Shown here piece by piece: positions 2,472 through 30,942 of a stretch of DNA of 41,928 bases (position 1 is the first letter of the stretch; the number at the start of each line of letters is the position of its first letter). Location of the stretch: the NCBI GenBank assembly GCA_016929445.1, contig JAFGIU010000035.1, positions 1-41,928 of the forward strand, written 5' to 3'. The notes under the pieces are model-generated. The model was not told the DNA's origin. It saw only the letters and a list, made by a program, of their open reading frames with translations, and made no database searches. The stretch is from Candidatus Omnitrophota bacterium (GTDB lineage: Bacteria; Omnitrophota; Gorgyraeia; JAFGIU01). A program made the position numbers and the translations under genes.

Positions 2472-5400
2472 GGTTGCTTTCTGGGTTGCCTTTACCGGGA
2501 CGTTGTTTCTTGTTTCTGCTGCTTCCGCCCAAATGATGGGTTCGATTCGCGGAACGGTACTTGATAGAGATTTCGATGTGCCTTTGGCTGCTGTGGAAAT
2601 TTCCATTGCGGAAACCGGCGAGAAGATTGTCGGGACCGATGAGGGCAACTTCGTATTCAAGGAGGTGCCTCCGGGAAAATACACATTGGTTTTCTCCAAA
2701 GATGGCTACACAAGGCAAGTTCAGGCCAATGTCGTGGTATCTCCGGCCCAAATGACAGATGTGGATGCCGCACTATCCGGTGAATTTACGGATATGGAGG
2801 AATTCGTTGTTCAGGACCTCCAAATCGGCGGGGGAACTGAAGCAGGTTTGCTCCAACTGCGCATCGAGAGCCCGGCACTGATGGATTCCATTAGTGCGGA
2901 CCTCATGAGCCAGGCAGGGGCCGGTGATGCGGCAAGCGCCCTGAAGCTCGTGTCGGGCGCCACTGTGCAAGACGGAAAATTTGCCGTGATACGAGGGCTG
3001 CCCGATCGGTACGTGAATTCCCAGATGAACTCCGTGCGTCTTCCTACCGCAGATCCGGACAAACGCGCCGTTCAGTTGGATCAGTTTCCCTCGGCAGTGA
3101 TCGAGAGCATTCAAGTCAGCAAGACCTTTACACCCGATCAACAGGGCGATGCCTCCGGCGGAGCCGTCAATCTCGTACTCAAGTCGATTCCCGAGGAAGA
3201 CCAGGTCAAGGCTAGGGTTAAAGCCGGTTACAACACTCAGACAACTGGAAATAACGATTACCTCACCTACAAGGGCGGGGGCGTGGGTTTTCTCGGAACG
3301 GATGATGGACGGCGGGAGCTGGATGGCAGTTTTCTGGGCGCGGTTGGTGTAAGCCGGGCCGATGCCCCACCAAATTTCGACATGTCTGTGACCGTAGGAG
3401 GAAAGCGAGAGATTCCATTTGACGCCAAAGTCGGAGGGTTTGCCAACGCTTATTACAAGCGGATGAATTCCTATTACTCGAACGGAATCGACAATTCTCT
3501 TTGGGTGGAGGATCCCAGCATTGGTGAAATGACGCCCCAGAAGAATCAGAATGGGGGAATTGACGATTTCAAGACAGCCCTATTTGATCAGCAGAAAGGT
3601 ACCGAAGAGGTGCAGTGGGGTACCTTGATCAAGGTGGGGGCGGAGTATGAACAACAATCTGTGGATTTCCTTTACATGGTTACCCGGGTTGCCGAGGACA
3701 CGGCTTTGCTTTCCGAAGATACCCGGGGCAAGGAGGTGTTCTTTCCCGGCCATGACCCTTCAGACCCTGATTCGCCGGGGCATGATTTTCCCGATGCAGC
3801 CCCCTATCTCAGAACGGAAACATTGGAATACACGGAGCGAACGACCACAACCATGCAGCTCAGCGGGGACCATGTCACTCCCTTCTTTCCGGATATCGAA
3901 TTTCACAGTTACTTTACGATTCTGCCGCCTGAGTTCGATTGGACCCTGGCTCTGAGCTCCTCCGAGCTGTATCAGCCGAACAAGGTTCAGTTCGGCAGCC
4001 TGTGGTGGCCGGAAGTGCCGGACGAAATTATCGATATCGGATTTGGGCCCATGATCATACCGGGCAAGCCGGAGCAACATCGTATTCTCAAGCCGGCTGC
4101 CAATTTCACCATGGGAAATCTTCAAAGAATCTGGAAAGAAATTGCCGAGGACAGCAATCAATTTATCTTCAATCTGAAAGTGCCGTTTGAGCAGTGGACC
4201 GAGGATCCGGGCTACATAAAGCTCGGGATGTTCCAGGACAGGGTGGATCGCAGTTACGACCAGGACTCCTTTAGCAATCTTGAGGACAACGCGGCTAATT
4301 ATGAGGCAGGCTACGAGGATTTGTGGAGTGCGGTCTTTCCATCCGAAGAACATGAAGTTAAAGCGGCGGATATCGATGTGGACTACAAGGGAGAGCAGGA
4401 AATCACGGCCTGGTATTGGATGGCTGATGTGCCCCTGACCTCATTCTTCAAGCTGACCGGGGGGATTCGCTACGAGAGCACCCAGCTGAGTATTGAGAAT
4501 GAAGCGGAGTCGGAGGTGCGTTGGGTGCCGCCGGGTGAAACCGCGGATACGGTTCTCAATGAAGGGGATGCTGATGTGTCCTTTAAGCAGGTCGACGAAC
4601 TGCCTTCGATTGGCTTCGAGTTTGCACCGGGCGCTGACTTCCTTCCCTGGATCCGCTTTAAGCCTCTCGAAAACTTCAAATTCAGGGGATCATACACAGA
4701 AACCGTAGCGCGCCAAACTTTTAAAGAACTTACCCCGATTCAGCAACAGGAGTTTCTGGGTGCCGATGTCTTTATTGGAAACCCCGAATTGGGCATGAGC
4801 TCCTTGGAGAACTACGACTTGCGTCTGGATTATACGCCCTATCCGGGGGGATTGGTTTCCCTGTCATGGTTTAAGAAGGATGTTGTGGATGCGATCGAGT
4901 ATGTGCAGAAGAGAAACGCTTCCTTTGGTTTTACAACGCCTGTGAACTATCCGAAGGGGAAGTTGAGCGGTTGGGAGTTCGAAGTACGAACTCAGCTTGG
5001 GCGTTTCTGGGAATTCCTGGATGGTATATCAATTGGAGGCAATGCCACCTTTATTCAGTCTCAAGTCATTTTGCCTACAGTTGAATCCGGCGATTTGGAA
5101 AGAGATTTCGGAGTATCCATGATTAGCCGCGAGATGTCGAATGCTCCGCAACATCTTTACAACCTTTTCCTGACCTATGACTTGGAGCGCTTTGGTACGG
5201 AAATCGGCCTGTTTTACACCGTTAGAGGAGATACGTTGATTGCGGGCGCGGGGCAGTCTAGCGGCAAATTCATCCCGAATGTATACGAAAAGGAATACGG
5301 CACGCTCAACTTCAATTTGTCACAGAAGATCGGGGAGGATTTTGAGCTTGTCTTCCAGGCCAAGAACCTCTTGGATCCGCTGATTCAGACAATTTACCGT

Positions 5401-21615: not shown

Positions 21616-24600
21616 ATGTTAAATGATCTCCTCAGAATGAACTGGGTCCGGGCGATCGCATTTATGCTCTCCTATGCTCTCGTGTGGACCAGTTGTCCGG
21701 CCGGCTATGAAGTGCTCGCAGCTCCCGGACAGTACGCGCGTTTGTCCGCAGGCAAGCGCCTTTTCAATGCCAGATCAGATGCGTCTTCTGCGTCTCCCCG
21801 TCCCCTGGTTTCTTCGCCGCGTGAGCATTTCCAGAAGCATTCCGGAACAAATGGACTCGCAGTTCCCCCCGGCTTGGGCCGTGTGGCCGAAGTCTGGCAG
21901 CCTGAAGGTGTGCAGGCAAAGGGCATGCTCTTCTATGTTCAGGATGTCCATGCCCACTCCGGGGCACAGACGCATATAGCGGCTCTGGTCAAGTTCCTCA
22001 GCGAGGCCTCCGGCATCAAGACAGTTGCTTTGGAAGGAGGGGAGGGGCATTGTCCGACAGAAGCTTTTTCCAATTATCCATCCCCCCAGGCAGTGGAGCG
22101 GGTGGCTCAACTCTTCCTCAACGAATCTTTGTTTACCGGACCTGAGTACTTTGCTGTGGTCAATCCCGGTGAGGCGAAACTCTACGGAGTGGAAGACAGC
22201 TCCGCCTATCGGGAACATCTCCTTGTCCATCAGAAGTGTGGGGACTCGCGTAGCCGCACTTTGGCTTCTCTGTCCATAATTCAATCCGAACTGGATGCAC
22301 TGAAGGAGTCCTGGTATCCCGAAGATCTCAGGAATCTGCAGGAAAAGCGGCAGGCCCTGAATTCCGGCAACGAGGCTGCATTTGAAGACTATGTCGAGGC
22401 GCTGCTTCGCCTGGCCCAGGCCCAACGGCTCGATCTGCATGCTTATCCGCAGGTGGCCGGCTTGGGCGTGGCAGCCCGCTTCTCCAAGGAGCTGAAGGAG
22501 CAGGAAGTCAAGAAAGACATCAAAAATCTCTTGGGGGCATTGACCCCCCGGCTCAACGGCAGGGAAATCCGCGAGCTCAAGGATCTGATAAACGAAGGCC
22601 AGAAAAACGAGCTCAGTCTCAATTACTATTGCCAGGCCCTGGGGAAGCTTGCGTACTGTAAGGGATTGCGCATTTCCCCATTCGAACCTAAGACAGCCAT
22701 TGAATCCAGCCCTGAAAATCTGACGATTCTTAGGGAAGCCTTGGAGAACCCTCCCGTTTCCCGTTTCCCTGTGTTTTCTCAGTACGTGGTGCTGCATCAG
22801 TTGCAGGGTGCGGTGCATTCCGAAGAGGCCTTTCAGGAAATGAGAGGTTTGGAGCGGTCTGTGGAGGAGGCCTCCCTCAATACCGAGGGCCAGAAAATTC
22901 TGCATACGATCCTCTCCCAGGCAGAGCAGATCCAAGGGCTTGCCACACTTAGCCTTTCTCCCGAGGGATGGACCGAATTCCGGAGCGAAGCGGAAAGGGG
23001 GAAGCTTTCCGCAGCAACCTGGGAGACCTTGCTGCGGCAGTTGAACCTGTGGAAGGAGTCGCACAAGGCGCTATTGACCGGAATCTTTGAGGCGTTGCCC
23101 GATCACGAGCGCTATTACGAATTGGCCAATGAACGCGACCGGATTTTTGCCGCGAACACTCTGGAACTTCTGCGGAGGCAGCCCAAGCGCGGCCTGATCC
23201 TTGTCACCGGAGGTTTCCATACGCCTGGGGTGACGCAGCGTCTCCGGGAACAAGACATTGCCTATGCGGTGATTGCCCCGCGCTTTGAGGGAAAGCCGGA
23301 TGACAGAGTGTATGAGAGCCGCTTGAGAGGCGAGTACCCGAGCTTTGCGCAGCTTTCGAGCCGGCTTCATCGGCAGGCTCTGGGCCCTGCGCTCGCCACA
23401 TGGCCCGGAAATCCCGGTTCTGCAGAATTGGTTACTCAGTTTCTCAGGTTGGCAGGCGCTACACCGGTGTCTGCCCCTGTTCAGGCGGCTCCGGCGGATC
23501 AGGCGATGCCGCTCTTGAATCCCACCCGCGCGGCCACGGAACCTGCGCTGGATCCGGGGCTTGTCGAAGGCGTGGAGGCCGCGGTTTTGGCCACCACGGG
23601 CAGGACGCCCTTACCCTTGCTCACTTCCAAGCAGCGTGAAGATGCCCGGACGCTGCGGCCCATTCCCCGGACGGAAGGTTTGCCCACAGAGCCGTCTCCT
23701 CTGAGTCTCATGACCGCTCGCAATTCCCGGTCGCGCAAACCCGAACCGGCGCCGACGCGGGGGCAGTGGCTGGAGCAGGCCCGGCAGATCCGGCGCGCAG
23801 AAGCCGATGCCGAAGGTGCCGGGGTTGGGAACTTGACACGGGAAGAAGATAAAATTGCGCCTCCAGCCCTGGAAGCAGAACGGCCTGAAGTACCTGAAAT
23901 ACCTGAAATATTGGAGGAGCCGGACTTCTTGCAAGACTCTTTGGCGGCAGATCCGCCAGCAGATTCAAACATCATTGAGGAGCCTCGCCGCCGTGTGCCA
24001 CGGAGTCGTGCCCCTGCGTTGCGCATTGGAGGTCCTCGGCGGGTTATTAAGCAGGCGGCCGTGGTCGTTCTGTTGTGCGTGATGCTTTTCATGCCATTCC
24101 GCAGTCTGTTGCCTCCGGTGGGTCATTCAAATGGCTGGGCTGAGTCCGGTCCCGTTGCTTGGATGCTGGATTCAGTGGATACCGTCACCGACTTCATCGG
24201 TCTGGGGCCCCGAATAGTTGAGGCTCAAGGTGGGGGAGGGACAATTCAGGAATTCCCCGCACCCAGTGAGGCAACACCTCCTGCGGAAACAGAGGAGGCC
24301 GTATCTCTTGCTGCAGCAGAGCAGGGCCGGTATCCCGCTCCTGCCCGGGCAGCGACAGACGGCCGGGATTTGGTGGCGCGCAATGGGTCGGGGGAGGTTA
24401 TAGGCCATTTCGGAAACGGGCGGGCCTTTCAGGTTCTGCGCCTGGTCTTTATTCCCCAGGATGATGATTTCTTTGTGAATTCAGGGTTGGATGGGGAGGA
24501 TTACCCAATATGGGCGGTTGTCGAATTTGAGGATGGGGAAGCCTTGGTTGCCTGGGGTCTCACTGAGACTGATGATTCCATACAGATCGAGACCCAGATA

Positions 24601-27600
24601 AGAGAGTTGCCGCAAGCCCGAGTTGGCAATGTGAGTACGGCTGATGGGCTGGGTTTGCGAATTCGCGATTCTCAAGGGGTGATTGTTGGAGGCATCCCTT
24701 CCGGGACGCCCATCGAATGGGATCAAGAGGTGGAGCCCGGCGATGATTTCTTCTTTAACACGGGACTGGTCCGGGCAGATCATCCTCTTTGGCTTTCTGT
24801 GTCCTCCGGAGACGTTGATGGCTGGGTTAGCGCAACCTGGGTGGATGTAACGGAAGAGGCTTCCACTGCAGCGCCTGCGGATCCCTTGGATGCAGCAGCC
24901 GCATTCGATCCGCTGGATGTGCCAGCAGCAAGCGCAACACCGGATGCGTCCTTGCCACAAGCTGCAACACCGGCAGGGACGGCCCCACAAACATCATCCG
25001 CGACGCCACCACCGAACTCGACTGTTTTTGTCCAGCCCGGCGCCGGTGCGAGTCAGCCTGCAGCAAGCTCTTCTGCTGCAGCGCCTGCTGTAACGCCGAC
25101 AGGGACGGCCCCACAAACATCATCCGCGACGCCACCGCCGAACTCGACTGTTTTTGTCCAGCCCGGCGCCGGTGCGAGTCAGCCTGCAGCAAGTTCTTCC
25201 GCCGTGAGTGTCCCATTGACGGCCGCTTCTCTGACGAGCGTGAACCGTCCGTCTTCTGTAATGCCTGGGATTCTGCAAATTCCGCTTTTTGGTGCGATAG
25301 GGGCTTTTCTTGCATTTCCGGTCTTCTGGATGCGGGCTAGACGCAAGCATGTAAGAAAACAGTTCCGGGAGTGGGAGAAAGCCGCGGAAAGTGTGAACTA
25401 TGCGGATTCGCCTGGAAACCACCCCAACGAGATTTCTCTTAGCCTGCTGGAATCAAACATCGAAGAGCTGGAGCAGAATCTGGAAAAACTTACTCCTCTG
25501 GAAGTGATCGTGGGCTTGGAACGCCAGTTGCAATATGCTCTGAAAGTCATTACAGAAAATGAGTTGAACCTGGATTCCTTAACAGACGAAGCGATTCACA
25601 CAATCGAAGAGCGGCACCATAGGCTTACGCAGTGCGCGGTTCGCGCCAAGCGTCTGCTGGATCCCCGAATCGATCAATTAGAGGCCTTGAGTCCATCAGA
25701 GCGTCGCAGACTTGTTTTGGTGGGGAAGCAATGGAGCCTGATGGCAAGGTATGGTGTGACCGTCAGTGACAGCCTTCACTTTGCTTATAACCTGAGAATG
25801 ATGAGCGCTTATGACTTCTGGAGGCCTCTGAAGGTGGTCTGGGGCATTTCGGCCGATATCGTCCATTCAGAAAATATGTTGCGTAAGCGTTTGGCCGAAG
25901 CTGTAGAAATCGGAAGGACGATCGACAATGGCCTGTACCAGGATCGGAAAGAGCTTCAACGCATGCGTCTGGCGATCCCCACTCTGGCATTTAGGAATGG
26001 CAGAGAATTCCATGGTATAGACCGTTCTTGGGTCTGGCGGAAGGTGCTGACTCGCTTTGCGCCTTTGGCATTTACAGGTTGGAAGTTGATGGAGCTCAAG
26101 GAAACAATTTCCAAAGGAGCTAGTTCTTCGGAAATTGTTGTTGCAGGAGCCCAAGTGGTGATGATGGGTATCGGAGCCTCTGCCGGGCTTTCCTGGGCCG
26201 CATTGCTCATTGGTTGGAATATGCGGCACCGGGAGTATCAGAAGGTGGCTGGTGAAATTGAAACCTTTGATCGCCGCCTTGAAGGCTTTCAAGAACAGAA
26301 TTCAATCACTCTTTGGAGCGGTCTACGGAATGAATTTTTGAGAATGGAACTTCAGCAGGCACAGCGAGCTTTGCCACGGGCCTTAAATGCTGAAACGGCG
26401 GCTACACACCTTGTCGTGGTTGTGGTTGGACCGGATCCAGAGAGAAAAACTATTCTCGAAGGACTCGTGAATCAAGCGCGTGACGCAAGAGGGAACTCCA
26501 TACTCGTGCCGGAAGGCGTTGAAGTGGTGTTTGTGGAATCAATGCCGGGACATAGAGGGGACGGCCTTGCTGTGATGGCAGGCATTGATGCGATTGCCGA
26601 ATTTGCAGATCGCGCTGGGATGGATCCCTCGCGGATAAGGTCCTCTTTGATTCTCGCAGATGAAAGCACGGCATCCTTGGAGACTCTGTTGACCGCCCTT
26701 CCTATTGAATTTGATGGATTCGCAGGTCTTCAGCGAAAGTTGGAGATTGAAGGCATTGCTCCGATAAATGGAGTCACGGCGCTGGAAATGGCCTTTATCA
26801 ACGGGTACCGCTTCCACGAAAAACTCCAGGCCCAGGGTGACTCCGGCGGAATCGTGTTTTTGGATGGGGGAGAAATCTATATCGGACCGACCAAGTTGAG
26901 TCAGGAAGCGGGGATTTTTGTGGTGGGGACTCAAGCATCCGGCCATCAGGTCGAGGAGCAGGGACTCGATGTCGTGTTGGATGATCCGGAGACAGGGAGG
27001 ATCCGTAAGCTCTATACCGAGTTCTCTATGGACACTATCAGGAACTGGCTGGAGGCCAAGACTGTGGGGGATGCTTTTGATCTGGGCAATAACAGCCGGC
27101 GGCAGTACACCGCAGCCACTGAAGTGACAGTAGGGCGTTTTCGGAGTGCGAAGGAATTCGAAGAATTCCAGGGTATGTTGGCCGCTATGCGCGGGAGTAT
27201 GGCCCGGATGCAAGAACAGATGCACGGCAGGACAAACGGAGATTTTAAGGCGGACCTTGGCTGGAGAGCTCATGTATTAATTCCCGGCATTATGGTTGCC
27301 AACGGGGAGCATTTGGGTCCGTATGCCTCGGTCCGGTCAGGGCTAAACGGAGTGGACGATGCTGTCCCCGTTCTCGAGGTCACTGTGGAGCATACCCCGC
27401 TATGGGAGAGTTTGCATGTCCGCAGCGAAATGGCTTTGCCCTATGCGTGGCAGATTAGTTTAAGTGAGGATGAGCGACAGAAATCCCGCCAGCTATACGA
27501 ACTGGAAACCTTGGGATCCAAGACGGCTTTGATCGCATCAGGGCGTCTCTCATCCTCGGGAAGACTGAGAATAAACACAGCAGTACGCGAAGGTCCAAAC

Positions 27601-30600
27601 ACGGTTGAGGAACTCTCCGAACTGCTTTCCATATTGGTGCAAGAGATCGGTGGCCCCTATCATTGGGGGCGGACGGGTATCCAGTTTGTAGAAAACCATT
27701 CTGATTCGGCGGTAAGAATCATGGGGACCCAGGCCAAGCCTTTGCTGGTGTTGCCTGCAAGACTGCTCGATCCCAGAGTGTTTAGGGAGAATCCCGAACT
27801 ATGGACGGTTATAGCGGTTGAGCTGGCCCGCAGTCTCTGTGCCGTTGCTGGTTCGCACAACCGGAGAGGGCCTCCTTTTGTGGGTGGTTTGCTAACCCGG
27901 TCTTTTCCTCGCCGCTATACAGCCAAGACACTCCCCGAAGTTCTAAATCGATTCCCGGTTGTTCTTCCGCAATTTGCGGACAATCTTTCTGGATTATTGA
28001 AGCTTGCTGAGACCCCGTTTGATTTGGAAGAGCGGCTCAATAAGAGTATGCAACCGCTCAGTCTGGCGGTTTCGGATGCTGCGGTTGATGCTCTAGTCGA
28101 GGCAAGCGGTGTTGTGTTCGCGCCCGGGGAGGATCTCCCGGATACCATGGAGATTGCTTTGCAGGGGCTTGAGAATATCGCGGCTATTCCGGCTGAGTCC
28201 TTGGAGCTTGCTCATATTGACACCTTCTTGATTCGCATCAAACCGCTCCTTAATCACGAGCGGCTTCTTCCCGAACTCTTTGATGCCGCTATTTCTCCGG
28301 ATAATATTTCCGCTCAGGAGCGTGTGGAGACACTTTTTGAACGTTATAAGAGGTTGGCGGATGCAACGCTCGAACTTTTGAAGGTGGCTGAGGAAAGAAT
28401 CGAGAGCCGGGCAAGTGTGAACGACTATGAGAAGATCCGTCTCGAAAATCTAACCCGCGAGCTCTTTCCTATTGCGGAATATTGTCTCAAATACCGGTAT
28501 TCGATCCTCAACAATGCCTACAATTTGAGGCATTTTTCCGAAGACTATCGAGTCAGAAATCAACGTGGTTTGGGAAGGAGCTTGAGCTGGATTGTCACCT
28601 CTATCTGGGGAATGAACGACGAAGTGCAACACGCCCGATTCAAATTACACGAGGCCGTAGATGAATTGGTAGCCTTGGGGAATGAAATCGATGGGGGCCT
28701 TTACACAGATCCTGATTCAGCAGGCCGCTTGCACCGGGCAGTCGTTCAGTTGAGCCAATCGGAGTCCCGGCATATGGGTACGCGCACCCTTTGGATTATG
28801 CGCAAATTGATGTCTCGTGGCATCAGTCTCGTGTTTGCCGGAATGGCGGTCGCGCCCATTGTGTGGGGTCTTATTCATGCGGTTTATACGGGCCAAGCGC
28901 CGCCTAGTGCGGCAGAGACTTTCGCGTCTGTTTCTCAAGGATTGTTGGGTGTAGGTGTTTCTGTCGGGTTATCTTGGGGGGCTATTCTTTATGGCCGTTA
29001 TGATCAAGGGCGTGGATATCGTTTGGGAATGAGACGATTGAGACATTTGGAACAAAGGCTGAGTGAGTTAACGGACATTGAGTTGAGGGGTCCGGAAGTT
29101 CGCAGGCAGCTCCTTCGCTCTGAAATCGTGCGTACGGGCGAAGTGCACCAAATGATAATGAAGCAGCCGGAAAGTCCTGGGGAAAAGAAGCCTGTGGACC
29201 TGGTTTTGGTGATGTCCGGGAGTGAAGATTCACACGCGCAGAAAATCGAAAGACATATGAGTGACAACCACCAGGTGCTTGTGCCTCCCGGTGTGGCATA
29301 TGCTGTGCTGCGGAGTCCTGCCGGGACCGCAGGCAGTGGTTATGCAGCGTTGGAAGCGCTCAGAAACCTTGCTCCGGAGCAATTAGGCGTCCTGATGGAG
29401 GAATATCCGGAACTGCAAGGCCGTCCCCTGGACGATCTCAATGTCATTATCATCCTTGCGGATGGGCCGGACACAGAGGCCTTGATGACGGAGCTGCCGT
29501 TTGGAGATGCTCCGGGTCTTGGGAGGCCGGCCACGGTTTTAGACTATGCGTTCATGAATGCCTATCGGGGAATTGAAGCACTGGCATCAGAGGATGAGAG
29601 GGGCCTGGTCATTGTTAATCCCGATAGCCTCCATCTGGGTGCGGTGCAGCTTGCACGGGATCAAGAAATGACCTTGGTCGGTGCTTGGGCCAGCCATCGC
29701 CAAGTTGACAGTGAAGGTTTGGGAGTCATGCTTGCAGACGGCAATGGCCTCCTGAGAAAGCTCTATGACAAGTTTGATTTTGGCCAGATCCGGAACTGGT
29801 TGGAACGCAGAAGAGTGGGCCGTATCTTTGATCTGCGCGATGAAGACTTGGAGCAGATGGTTGCCCACTCGGGGATCACCATCATGCGATTGGGGGAAGG
29901 TAGAGGAGAGAAATTGTTGCTCTGGCAGAATGCCCTCCGGGCGGCTGTAGACAATCCGGGTGCCGATTTGGGACTGCGTGCGGAGGATGCAGGAACAGTG
30001 AGTCTTGGATGGACCCGCCATGCAGTCATTCCTCGAATTATGGCGATTCAGGATGAGCGCATTGATGCGTATATCCGCCGTGTCGAGGGGCTTGCTCCCG
30101 ATCCGGCCTACTTAGAGTTGGTGCGGGCGCACCAAGCGACTTACAAAAGCGGATTAGGCCCAGCGAGCGTCGGGACTGCGGTGACATGGGATGCCAAGAC
30201 CGTGCGCTTTGGAAAGGGAGACCCGCAAGGGCAGGTAGAAGCTCTCCAAGAACTCGCTGGGGGAGTTTGGGGTGAGGCTGCGGCACAAACGGCAACAGAG
30301 CCGCCTGATGCTTGGGGGCTCGGAACCTGGTCTGCTGCTGCGGGTGCTTTGGAGGGCGCTCTTGGCACAAGGCTGCTGCCTGCGGCCGCAGGTCCGTCTG
30401 ATGGAAGCGAGGTGCTATCATCGGCAGGAGCGCTGTTGCTTGAGCGCCTAAATGAGGCGGTTGCCGAAGATTTTCAAGCGGTGCCTGGGGTTACCGCAGG
30501 AATTGCAGAGCGCATAGTGATGGAGCGCGGGAGGACCGGCGGTTTTGAGACGATAGCGCAATTGACGGGGGTGAAAGGGATTGGTCCGGCTCGACTCATC

Positions 30601-30942
30601 TTGATCCTGCGGCAAGTGGCTCCTGATGAAATGGATCAGCTTCTCTCCCTCTTGAATTCGCCCTCTCTGGGAATCGGCAAGCTTCGGGAGATACCTGGTA
30701 TTGGACGTCAACTTGCGCGGGAGATAGTCCTGCAGCGCAAAGAGAATGACTTTGAATCCATGTATGATTTAATGACCCGCGTTAAGGGCATCGGATTCAA
30801 TCGAATGATGGCGATTCTGCTCCACCTGGCAGAGGAGCCTCCTGCCGTAACACTCACCGAATTGGACCTGCCTGAGCTAGTAGCCCCTCTTGGGGATGAA
30901 GAAGTACTCCAGCTTCAAGCACTCCTAGCAAGTCAATTGTAA
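21616..30942 (+). CDS. Giant multidomain membrane-anchored protein (3108 aa): Tiki/ChaN-like, SH3-like, duplicated nucleotidyltransferase-like modules, C-terminal helix-hairpin-helix
   Basis: The family is not formally recognised; it resembles giant Omnitrophota proteins. Order: anchor helix (~10-28). Tiki/TraB/ChaN-like domain (~100-560) with VQDVHAH (His112, His114), ALEGGEG (Glu140) and VTGGFHTPGV (His535). Disordered Pro/Glu-rich linker (~570-800). Membrane helix (~813-833). Two SH3-like domains (~915-995, ~1005-1082). Ala/Pro/Ser linker with a 42-residue tandem repeat. Membrane helix (~1216-1240). Module 1 (~1272-1895): helical bundle, membrane hairpin (~1484-1536) and alpha/beta nucleotidyltransferase-like domain. 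A ~350-residue spacer. Module 2 (~2200-2810), a diverged copy of module 1. Last, two ComEA-type helix-hairpin-helix domains (~2950-3003, ~3020-3075). The frame is unbroken over 9.3 kb, so it is under selection. Function unknown. Confidence 0.85.
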   Translation: MLNDLLRMNWVRAIAFMLSYALVWTSCPAGYEVLAAPGQYARLSAGKRLFNARSDASSASPRPLVSSPREHFQKHSGTNGLAVPPGLGRVAEVWQPEGVQAKGMLFYVQDVHAHSGAQTHIAALVKFLSEASGIKTVALEGGEGHCPTEAFSNYPSPQAVERVAQLFLNESLFTGPEYFAVVNPGEAKLYGVEDSSAYREHLLVHQKCGDSRSRTLASLSIIQSELDALKESWYPEDLRNLQEKRQALNSGNEAAFEDYVEALLRLAQAQRLDLHAYPQVAGLGVAARFSKELKEQEVKKDIKNLLGALTPRLNGREIRELKDLINEGQKNELSLNYYCQALGKLAYCKGLRISPFEPKTAIESSPENLTILREALENPPVSRFPVFSQYVVLHQLQGAVHSEEAFQEMRGLERSVEEASLNTEGQKILHTILSQAEQIQGLATLSLSPEGWTEFRSEAERGKLSAATWETLLRQLNLWKESHKALLTGIFEALPDHERYYELANERDRIFAANTLELLRRQPKRGLILVTGGFHTPGVTQRLREQDIAYAVIAPRFEGKPDDRVYESRLRGEYPSFAQLSSRLHRQALGPALATWPGNPGSAELVTQFLRLAGATPVSAPVQAAPADQAMPLLNPTRAATEPALDPGLVEGVEAAVLATTGRTPLPLLTSKQREDARTLRPIPRTEGLPTEPSPLSLMTARNSRSRKPEPAPTRGQWLEQARQIRRAEADAEGAGVGNLTREEDKIAPPALEAERPEVPEIPEILEEPDFLQDSLAADPPADSNIIEEPRRRVPRSRAPALRIGGPRRVIKQAAVVVLLCVMLFMPFRSLLPPVGHSNGWAESGPVAWMLDSVDTVTDFIGLGPRIVEAQGGGGTIQEFPAPSEATPPAETEEAVSLAAAEQGRYPAPARAATDGRDLVARNGSGEVIGHFGNGRAFQVLRLVFIPQDDDFFVNSGLDGEDYPIWAVVEFEDGEALVAWGLTETDDSIQIETQIRELPQARVGNVSTADGLGLRIRDSQGVIVGGIPSGTPIEWDQEVEPGDDFFFNTGLVRADHPLWLSVSSGDVDGWVSATWVDVTEEASTAAPADPLDAAAAFDPLDVPAASATPDASLPQAATPAGTAPQTSSATPPPNSTVFVQPGAGASQPAASSSAAAPAVTPTGTAPQTSSATPPPNSTVFVQPGAGASQPAASSSAVSVPLTAASLTSVNRPSSVMPGILQIPLFGAIGAFLAFPVFWMRARRKHVRKQFREWEKAAESVNYADSPGNHPNEISLSLLESNIEELEQNLEKLTPLEVIVGLERQLQYALKVITENELNLDSLTDEAIHTIEERHHRLTQCAVRAKRLLDPRIDQLEALSPSERRRLVLVGKQWSLMARYGVTVSDSLHFAYNLRMMSAYDFWRPLKVVWGISADIVHSENMLRKRLAEAVEIGRTIDNGLYQDRKELQRMRLAIPTLAFRNGREFHGIDRSWVWRKVLTRFAPLAFTGWKLMELKETISKGASSSEIVVAGAQVVMMGIGASAGLSWAALLIGWNMRHREYQKVAGEIETFDRRLEGFQEQNSITLWSGLRNEFLRMELQQAQRALPRALNAETAATHLVVVVVGPDPERKTILEGLVNQARDARGNSILVPEGVEVVFVESMPGHRGDGLAVMAGIDAIAEFADRAGMDPSRIRSSLILADESTASLETLLTALPIEFDGFAGLQRKLEIEGIAPINGVTALEMAFINGYRFHEKLQAQGDSGGIVFLDGGEIYIGPTKLSQEAGIFVVGTQASGHQVEEQGLDVVLDDPETGRIRKLYTEFSMDTIRNWLEAKTVGDAFDLGNNSRRQYTAATEVTVGRFRSAKEFEEFQGMLAAMRGSMARMQEQMHGRTNGDFKADLGWRAHVLIPGIMVANGEHLGPYASVRSGLNGVDDAVPVLEVTVEHTPLWESLHVRSEMALPYAWQISLSEDERQKSRQLYELETLGSKTALIASGRLSSSGRLRINTAVREGPNTVEELSELLSILVQEIGGPYHWGRTGIQFVENHSDSAVRIMGTQAKPLLVLPARLLDPRVFRENPELWTVIAVELARSLCAVAGSHNRRGPPFVGGLLTRSFPRRYTAKTLPEVLNRFPVVLPQFADNLSGLLKLAETPFDLEERLNKSMQPLSLAVSDAAVDALVEASGVVFAPGEDLPDTMEIALQGLENIAAIPAESLELAHIDTFLIRIKPLLNHERLLPELFDAAISPDNISAQERVETLFERYKRLADATLELLKVAEERIESRASVNDYEKIRLENLTRELFPIAEYCLKYRYSILNNAYNLRHFSEDYRVRNQRGLGRSLSWIVTSIWGMNDEVQHARFKLHEAVDELVALGNEIDGGLYTDPDSAGRLHRAVVQLSQSESRHMGTRTLWIMRKLMSRGISLVFAGMAVAPIVWGLIHAVYTGQAPPSAAETFASVSQGLLGVGVSVGLSWGAILYGRYDQGRGYRLGMRRLRHLEQRLSELTDIELRGPEVRRQLLRSEIVRTGEVHQMIMKQPESPGEKKPVDLVLVMSGSEDSHAQKIERHMSDNHQVLVPPGVAYAVLRSPAGTAGSGYAALEALRNLAPEQLGVLMEEYPELQGRPLDDLNVIIILADGPDTEALMTELPFGDAPGLGRPATVLDYAFMNAYRGIEALASEDERGLVIVNPDSLHLGAVQLARDQEMTLVGAWASHRQVDSEGLGVMLADGNGLLRKLYDKFDFGQIRNWLERRRVGRIFDLRDEDLEQMVAHSGITIMRLGEGRGEKLLLWQNALRAAVDNPGADLGLRAEDAGTVSLGWTRHAVIPRIMAIQDERIDAYIRRVEGLAPDPAYLELVRAHQATYKSGLGPASVGTAVTWDAKTVRFGKGDPQGQVEALQELAGGVWGEAAAQTATEPPDAWGLGTWSAAAGALEGALGTRLLPAAAGPSDGSEVLSSAGALLLERLNEAVAEDFQAVPGVTAGIAERIVMERGRTGGFETIAQLTGVKGIGPARLILILRQVAPDEMDQLLSLLNSPSLGIGKLREIPGIGRQLAREIVLQRKENDFESMYDLMTRVKGIGFNRMMAILLHLAEEPPAVTLTELDLPELVAPLGDEEVLQLQALLASQL
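24975..25193 (+). repeat. Tandem 126-bp repeat in the linker of the giant protein
   Basis: A 93-base segment at 24975-25067 recurs at 25101-25193 with a single substitution (CCACCACCG against CCACCGCCG), giving a 126-bp (42-residue) period. It encodes two copies of a Thr/Pro/Ser-rich linker containing STVFVQPGAGASQPAASS. The near identity at DNA level points to a recent slippage or unequal-crossover duplication that kept the frame. Confidence 0.9.

Follow-up and report, generated by a model that had tools for sequence, protein, structure and literature searches.

A 3108-residue Omnitrophota protein joining a Tiki-like leader, duplicated nucleotidyltransferase-like membrane modules and a ComEA-type tail

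The window analysed here, a stretch of 41,928 nt that makes up the entire contig C35 of a 2.43-Mb Candidatus Omnitrophota genome in 137 contigs, contains an uninterrupted frame of 9.3 kb encoding 3108 amino acids (Table 1). Codon usage was compared with that of the neighbouring genes for each full 100-codon block, and the fit was better in the frame itself than in the two other forward frames in all full blocks except the P/T/S-rich stretch 1101–1200. Because the bias holds nearly throughout, an assembly join of separate genes or a chance frame is disfavoured, and an artefact of this kind was rejected as the main reading. The evidence that the frame reads as one gene, as the initial annotation had it, is strong; despite the continuous coding bias, it may contain an in-frame fusion within the single metagenome assembly. 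The gene follows an exopolysaccharide-export operon (Bac_transf, SLBB/Wza, Wzz and a Wzx-like gene), an adjacency seen in one genome only. Directly 3′ of its stop codon lies a strong hairpin with the arms GGGACAGTTCTT and AAGAACTGTCCC, whose 13-mer GGGGACAGTTCTT was absent from the compared loci on other contigs; an Rfam search of the window gave no match. The comparison set comprised 384 genomes of the phylum, with no other genome from the genus or order of the window genome.

Table 1 Features of the frame and its 3′ flank, in window coordinates
Feature	Residues	Position	Strand	Basis
Whole frame, 3108 aa + stop		21616..30942	+	Translation without internal stop; coding bias
Hydrophobic signal-like segment, N-terminal	~12–34	21649..21717	+	Sequence; same in family members
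Tiki/TraB/ChaN/EreA-like domain	~75–605	21838..23430	+	Alignment; model pLDDT 89.4; weak ChaN matches; ChaN/EreC among fold matches
QDVH motif	109–112	21940..21951	+	Q, D, H invariant in 28 sequences
GGFH motif	532–535	23209..23220	+	G, G, H invariant, F at least 90% (28 sequences)
P/E/R-rich linker, basic stretch at end	621–812	23476..24051	+	Sequence
Transmembrane segment; K/R 6 before, 0 after	814–832	24055..24111	+	Hydrophobicity, flank charge
Two related ~75-aa repeats, SH3b-like by eye only	916–1081	24361..24858	+	Repeat 1 versus 2, E 8.3e-9
P/T/S-rich linker with recent 116-nt tandem duplication (95%)		24961..25202	+	Sequence
Transmembrane segment; K/R 1 before, 8 after	1219–1237	25270..25326	+	Hydrophobicity, flank charge
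Module C1: helices, membrane hairpin, predicted pseudo-nucleotidyltransferase	1290–1950 (as aligned)	25483..27465	+	Alignment
Module C2: same build as C1	2190–2850 (as aligned)	28183..30165	+	Alignment; model pLDDT 81.3, fold matches
First ComEA-type (HhH)2 unit, PGVTAGIAERI ... VKGIGPARLI		30484..30600	+	Pfam, NCBIfam, PDB sequence search
Second (HhH)2 unit, PGIGRQLAREI ... VKGIGFNRMM		30694..30810	+	Pfam
Strong hairpin, terminator- or palindrome-like, directly 3′ of stop codon		30948..31004	+	Fold −30.3 kcal/mol, z −7.3

The protein begins with a domain of ~500 aa, here called the leader, that belongs to a family present in 173 of the 384 phylum genomes, with up to several copies per genome. 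Leader-bearing frames span 464 to 23,964 aa, and the domain occurs either alone or at the head of long proteins; it was N-terminal in essentially all of the 108 frames examined, the remaining placements being contig-end cuts or split matches. Of the 89 family members whose 5′ side is complete, 85 have a hydrophobic segment ahead of the domain. As a single-protein query against GTDB contigs the leader found no match, whereas a search with the alignment found many and yielded 524 confirmed loci; nearly all of the 80 matches listed were titled Omnitrophota.

The initial annotation had placed this region in the TraB/ChaN/Tiki fold, naming two histidines (H112 and H114), E140 and GGFH. In an alignment of 28 sequences, the Q, D and H of QDxH (the last being H112), E140 within LEGG, the G and E of GxED, R507 and the two glycines and histidine of GGFH were invariant, so that all the named residues are conserved or nearly so with the exception of H114. 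These elements occur in the order expected for the TraB/ChaN/EreA/Tiki superfamily (PF01963, PF04187, PF05139). The AlphaFold model of the leader opens with a beta-alpha-beta unit and ends with a strand, GGFH, a helix and a strand, and thus has in common with the superfamily an alpha/beta core and a terminal GxxH strand-helix-strand; it differs in a helical insertion of ~300 residues and in weak profile and fold scores. The best ChaN profile scores were 0.0027–0.0029 in leader members, 0.14 for the core of the window protein and 2.9e-4 in one relative, the TraB profile scored 0.14 in one relative, and Foldseek returned ChaN 2g5g and EreC 6xcq at E ~2 (prob 0.10) in a list dominated by helical matches. 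No Pfam match of the leader reached strict membership, and removing the insertion from the alignment did not raise the scores enough for it. Neither hhalign against a single sequence of E. coli YbaP nor a search of 58 phylum genomes for PF01963 gave a match, and a PDB sequence search with the leader and module profiles found nothing convincing. Together, the conserved motifs and predicted topology provide moderate evidence for a Tiki-superfamily-like N-terminal domain, and we consider it likely that the leader belongs to the TraB/ChaN/EreA/Tiki superfamily. Judged from the alignment, its set of conserved putative active-site residues is intact.

Further along the frame, the modules C1 (residues ~1300–1910) and C2 (~2200–2830), whose aligned stretches in Table 1 are somewhat longer, align with each other at 30% identity (E 2.5e-46), as anticipated by the description of duplicated membrane/nucleotidyltransferase-like modules, and both keep the fold-defining pattern despite this divergence. 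The AlphaFold model of C2 starts with an extended run of helices that includes a membrane hairpin and continues into an alpha/beta domain; the best PDB fold matches of the model were ADP-glucose pyrophosphorylase (prob 0.97 and 0.92) and HddC (0.63), with a best E of 8.8e-3. Distant members of the module family match Fucose_pyrophosphorylase (PF07959, 1e-11) and NTP_transferase (PF00483, 3e-6), and retain a GxGTR-type loop, NGDG and EKP. The modules therefore have a predicted fold in common with sugar nucleotidyltransferases (ADP-Glc pyrophosphorylase, HddC and the fucose-1-P guanylyltransferase of PF07959), whose motifs are intact in the distant members, and there is good support for regarding them as a membrane-associated nucleotidyltransferase fold. 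The window modules differ from these enzymes in carrying additional helices and a membrane hairpin in the same chain and in missing the catalytic GxGTR loop, a feature that we add to the initial description. The loop is absent from both window modules and from every closer relative; in total, 22 of the 26 members lack it when L052, with a variant loop, is scored as loop-bearing. Because it is lost, we regard C1, C2 and these relatives as pseudo-nucleotidyltransferases, and an active nucleotidyltransferase was rejected.

Searches of 384 class genomes found related modules in 31 of them; the frames concerned range from about 600 to 37,731 aa in length. The proteins of family f19 (~3000 aa, L063–L070) share a different leader, KAISLDPxDPFKINFLVDAG, and a tail, GGLDLS ... 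FRGFDF, which flank one module. A frame of 1054 aa (L078:6708-9869) carries, after a signal-like segment, a pyruvate kinase barrel (9e-71) and a fucose-pyrophosphorylase-like domain, and an open frame of 3156 aa (L076:3-9470) has glucan-synthase-like matches (6.9e-14) and two fucose-pyrophosphorylase stretches.

Between leader and modules, the ~75-aa repeats gave no Pfam SH3 match, and among 193 genomes the middle segment was found only in the window genome. The membrane segments expected from the first reading of the sequence are present as the hydrophobic stretches 814–832 and 1219–1237 and one hairpin in each module. In 11 hand-picked hairpins, the mean number of K/R in 20 residues was 5.0 before the first segment and 3.8 after the second, and about 0.6 and 0.5 on the inner flanks. 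Since K/R residues are frequent outside the hairpin on either side and scarce on its inner flanks, the positive-inside rule assigns the module to the cytoplasm; the pseudo-nucleotidyltransferase modules and the C-terminal tail probably face that compartment. The basic N-side flank of segment 814–832 contradicts an exported leader, because a signal peptide would put that side outside; the same basic-flank pattern recurs in G083, G154, G263, G121 and G319.

The tail comprises four helix-hairpin-helix (HhH) motifs forming two (HhH)2 units, and the motifs first noted here, PGVTAGIAERI (2957–2967) and PGIGRQLAREI (3027–3037), indeed start 70 residues apart. Pfam HHH_3 matches the tail at 4.1e-16 and NCBIfam TIGR01259 at 1.6e-12, the latter below the family cut-off, and ComEA was closest in both the NCBIfam and PDB sequence searches. 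The sequence evidence for a tail of ComEA-type (HhH)2 is strong. With the ComEA (HhH)2 DNA receptor the window protein has the HhH sequence pattern and membrane attachment in common; ComEA is periplasmic, whereas the window tail consists of two tandem units that end a giant protein and are predicted to be cytoplasmic. None of the other leader or module frames examined carries an HhH tail, and what matches it in the rest of the phylum are small ComEA-like frames of their own, 108–155 aa long; conservation of the system therefore does not extend to the tail.

Giant ORFs have been described in Omnitrophota, with adhesion or predation proposed as their function (Nat Microbiol 2023, PMC10066038). 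The window protein resembles them, as they appear in the part of that report drawn on here, in phylum, multidomain build, membrane segments and scarcity of annotated domains. Its gene, at 9.3 kb, falls below the 20-kb cut used there (PMC10066038), yet shares leader and modules with frames of >10,000 aa. The protein is without adhesin domains, and neither the HhH tail nor the domain order of the window protein is among the features described in that part of the report (PMC10066038). In the collection of papers searched, none joined Omnitrophota giant proteins with a Tiki domain. The domain order, initially singled out as unfamiliar, was unique among the frames examined; giant proteins of mosaic build are nevertheless common in Omnitrophota, and so, in particular, is the leader.

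The gene neighbourhoods of the module family point to phosphate uptake. Recurrent neighbours of 17 module genes (the window gene included, clustered) were PstS, PstC/PstA, PstB, a histidine kinase and a porin. Representatives of these neighbours scored above the NCBIfam cut-offs for PstS, PstC, PstA, PstB and PnpS, and the neighbouring response regulator was nearest to PhoB, below the cut-off. Genes of the pst/pho type stood beside the module gene on 14 of 26 other module contigs, in four families, as against 0 of 20 leader-only contigs, where a single ABC-ATPase match on one contig was counted as generic and not as pst; the Fisher p of 5e-5 is optimistic, as the contigs are related to one another and the pattern was already known when they were compared. 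Large module proteins adjoin pst/pho and Porin_5 genes on L063, L022, L018, L021 and ten further module contigs, in the Omnitrophota families f2, f9, f19 and f30. To our knowledge, the Pst/Pho components described so far do not include the module protein. Whereas phoR/phoB-like, porin and pstSCAB genes adjoin the genes of these relatives, the window gene lies outside any pst/pho locus. A phoB-phoR-porin-pstSCAB-like cluster does occur in the window genome, on a different contig and with no module gene near it, and a search for Pho boxes in the window gave hits at chance level. Because the window gene is not itself in a pst locus, its phosphate link is one by analogy.

These data bear on several explanations of the whole protein, some of them raised by the initial annotation. 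The two complete ComEA-type units and a C-terminal half assigned to the cytoplasm by the positive-inside pattern are what one would expect of an envelope–nucleoid linker, in which the tail binds chromosomal DNA, the rest ties this DNA to the envelope and the modules are mere spacers; we consider this unlikely, as the tail is absent from the other leader and module frames and its relatives are small separate proteins. A ComEA-like function in DNA uptake, for which the HhH tail would lie beyond the inner membrane, could draw on the same resemblance to ComEA, but flanking charges put the tail inside, no competence genes were recognised in the window, and the module relatives reside in phosphate and not in competence loci. 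For these reasons of location and topology the uptake proposal is not supported and appears very improbable. The suggestion of a secreted toxin-like process found no counterpart either, as nothing toxin-like was detected.

A role in cell-surface attachment or predation, which has been put forward for other giant ORFs of the phylum (PMC10066038), would agree with the occurrence of the leader and modules in frames of 10,000–37,000 aa; we rate it as improbable, as a search of the window protein for adhesin or polysaccharide-degrading domains found none and the phosphate-locus linkage of the modules points elsewhere. Alternatively, the protein could be a recent domain-shuffling mosaic whose combination has little selected function, so that only the leader hydrolase matters. 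That the combination was found once and that the P/T/S-rich linker contains a recent tandem duplication would suit such an origin, which nevertheless seems quite unlikely given a coding bias kept over nearly all 9.3 kb and a fold-defining pattern maintained in two modules so far diverged.

We favour, with a probability of roughly 40%, the view that the window protein belongs to the giant-protein class of Omnitrophota and works at the membrane as a scaffold or sensor, with cytoplasmic modules and tail, tied to phosphate or sugar-nucleotide status. In this arrangement the leader would be exported and act outside the inner membrane as a hydrolase or binding domain, and segments 814–832 and 1219–1237 would route the polypeptide through the membrane in such a way that modules and tail are cytoplasmic but stay close to it. 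Rather than catalyse a reaction, the pseudo-nucleotidyltransferase modules may bind a ligand, either a nucleotide sugar or a phosphorylated compound, or else a partner, and could signal phosphate or sugar-nucleotide status to the envelope. We suggest that the module gene was once part of a pst locus and that, in the window lineage, it moved out and gained the Tiki-like leader and the HhH tail. Control of the envelope or of exopolysaccharide would be the likeliest output, because the gene now stands behind an exopolysaccharide-export operon, and the tail would most likely anchor the complex to membrane-proximal DNA or, alternatively, serve as a protein-binding repeat.

For the family as a whole, a more far-reaching and doubtful proposal is that the hairpin pseudo-nucleotidyltransferases belong to Omnitrophota phosphate loci as a component not described before, facing the cytoplasm as a sensor or scaffold and coupling phosphate status to envelope polysaccharide. 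On this view the window protein would have branched off from the family, carrying a Tiki-like hydrolase that is exported and a tail that binds DNA, and its single chain would connect the envelope with the chromosome. The stand-alone copies of the Tiki-like leader, at about 516–580 aa, are small enough for expression and assay and offer a handle on the function of the giant proteins; the window genome itself encodes one of 576 aa on its contig C122. The most useful new lead is the association of the module family with phosphate loci: a dead-enzyme membrane module that stands repeatedly beside phosphate-uptake genes provides a first testable functional context.
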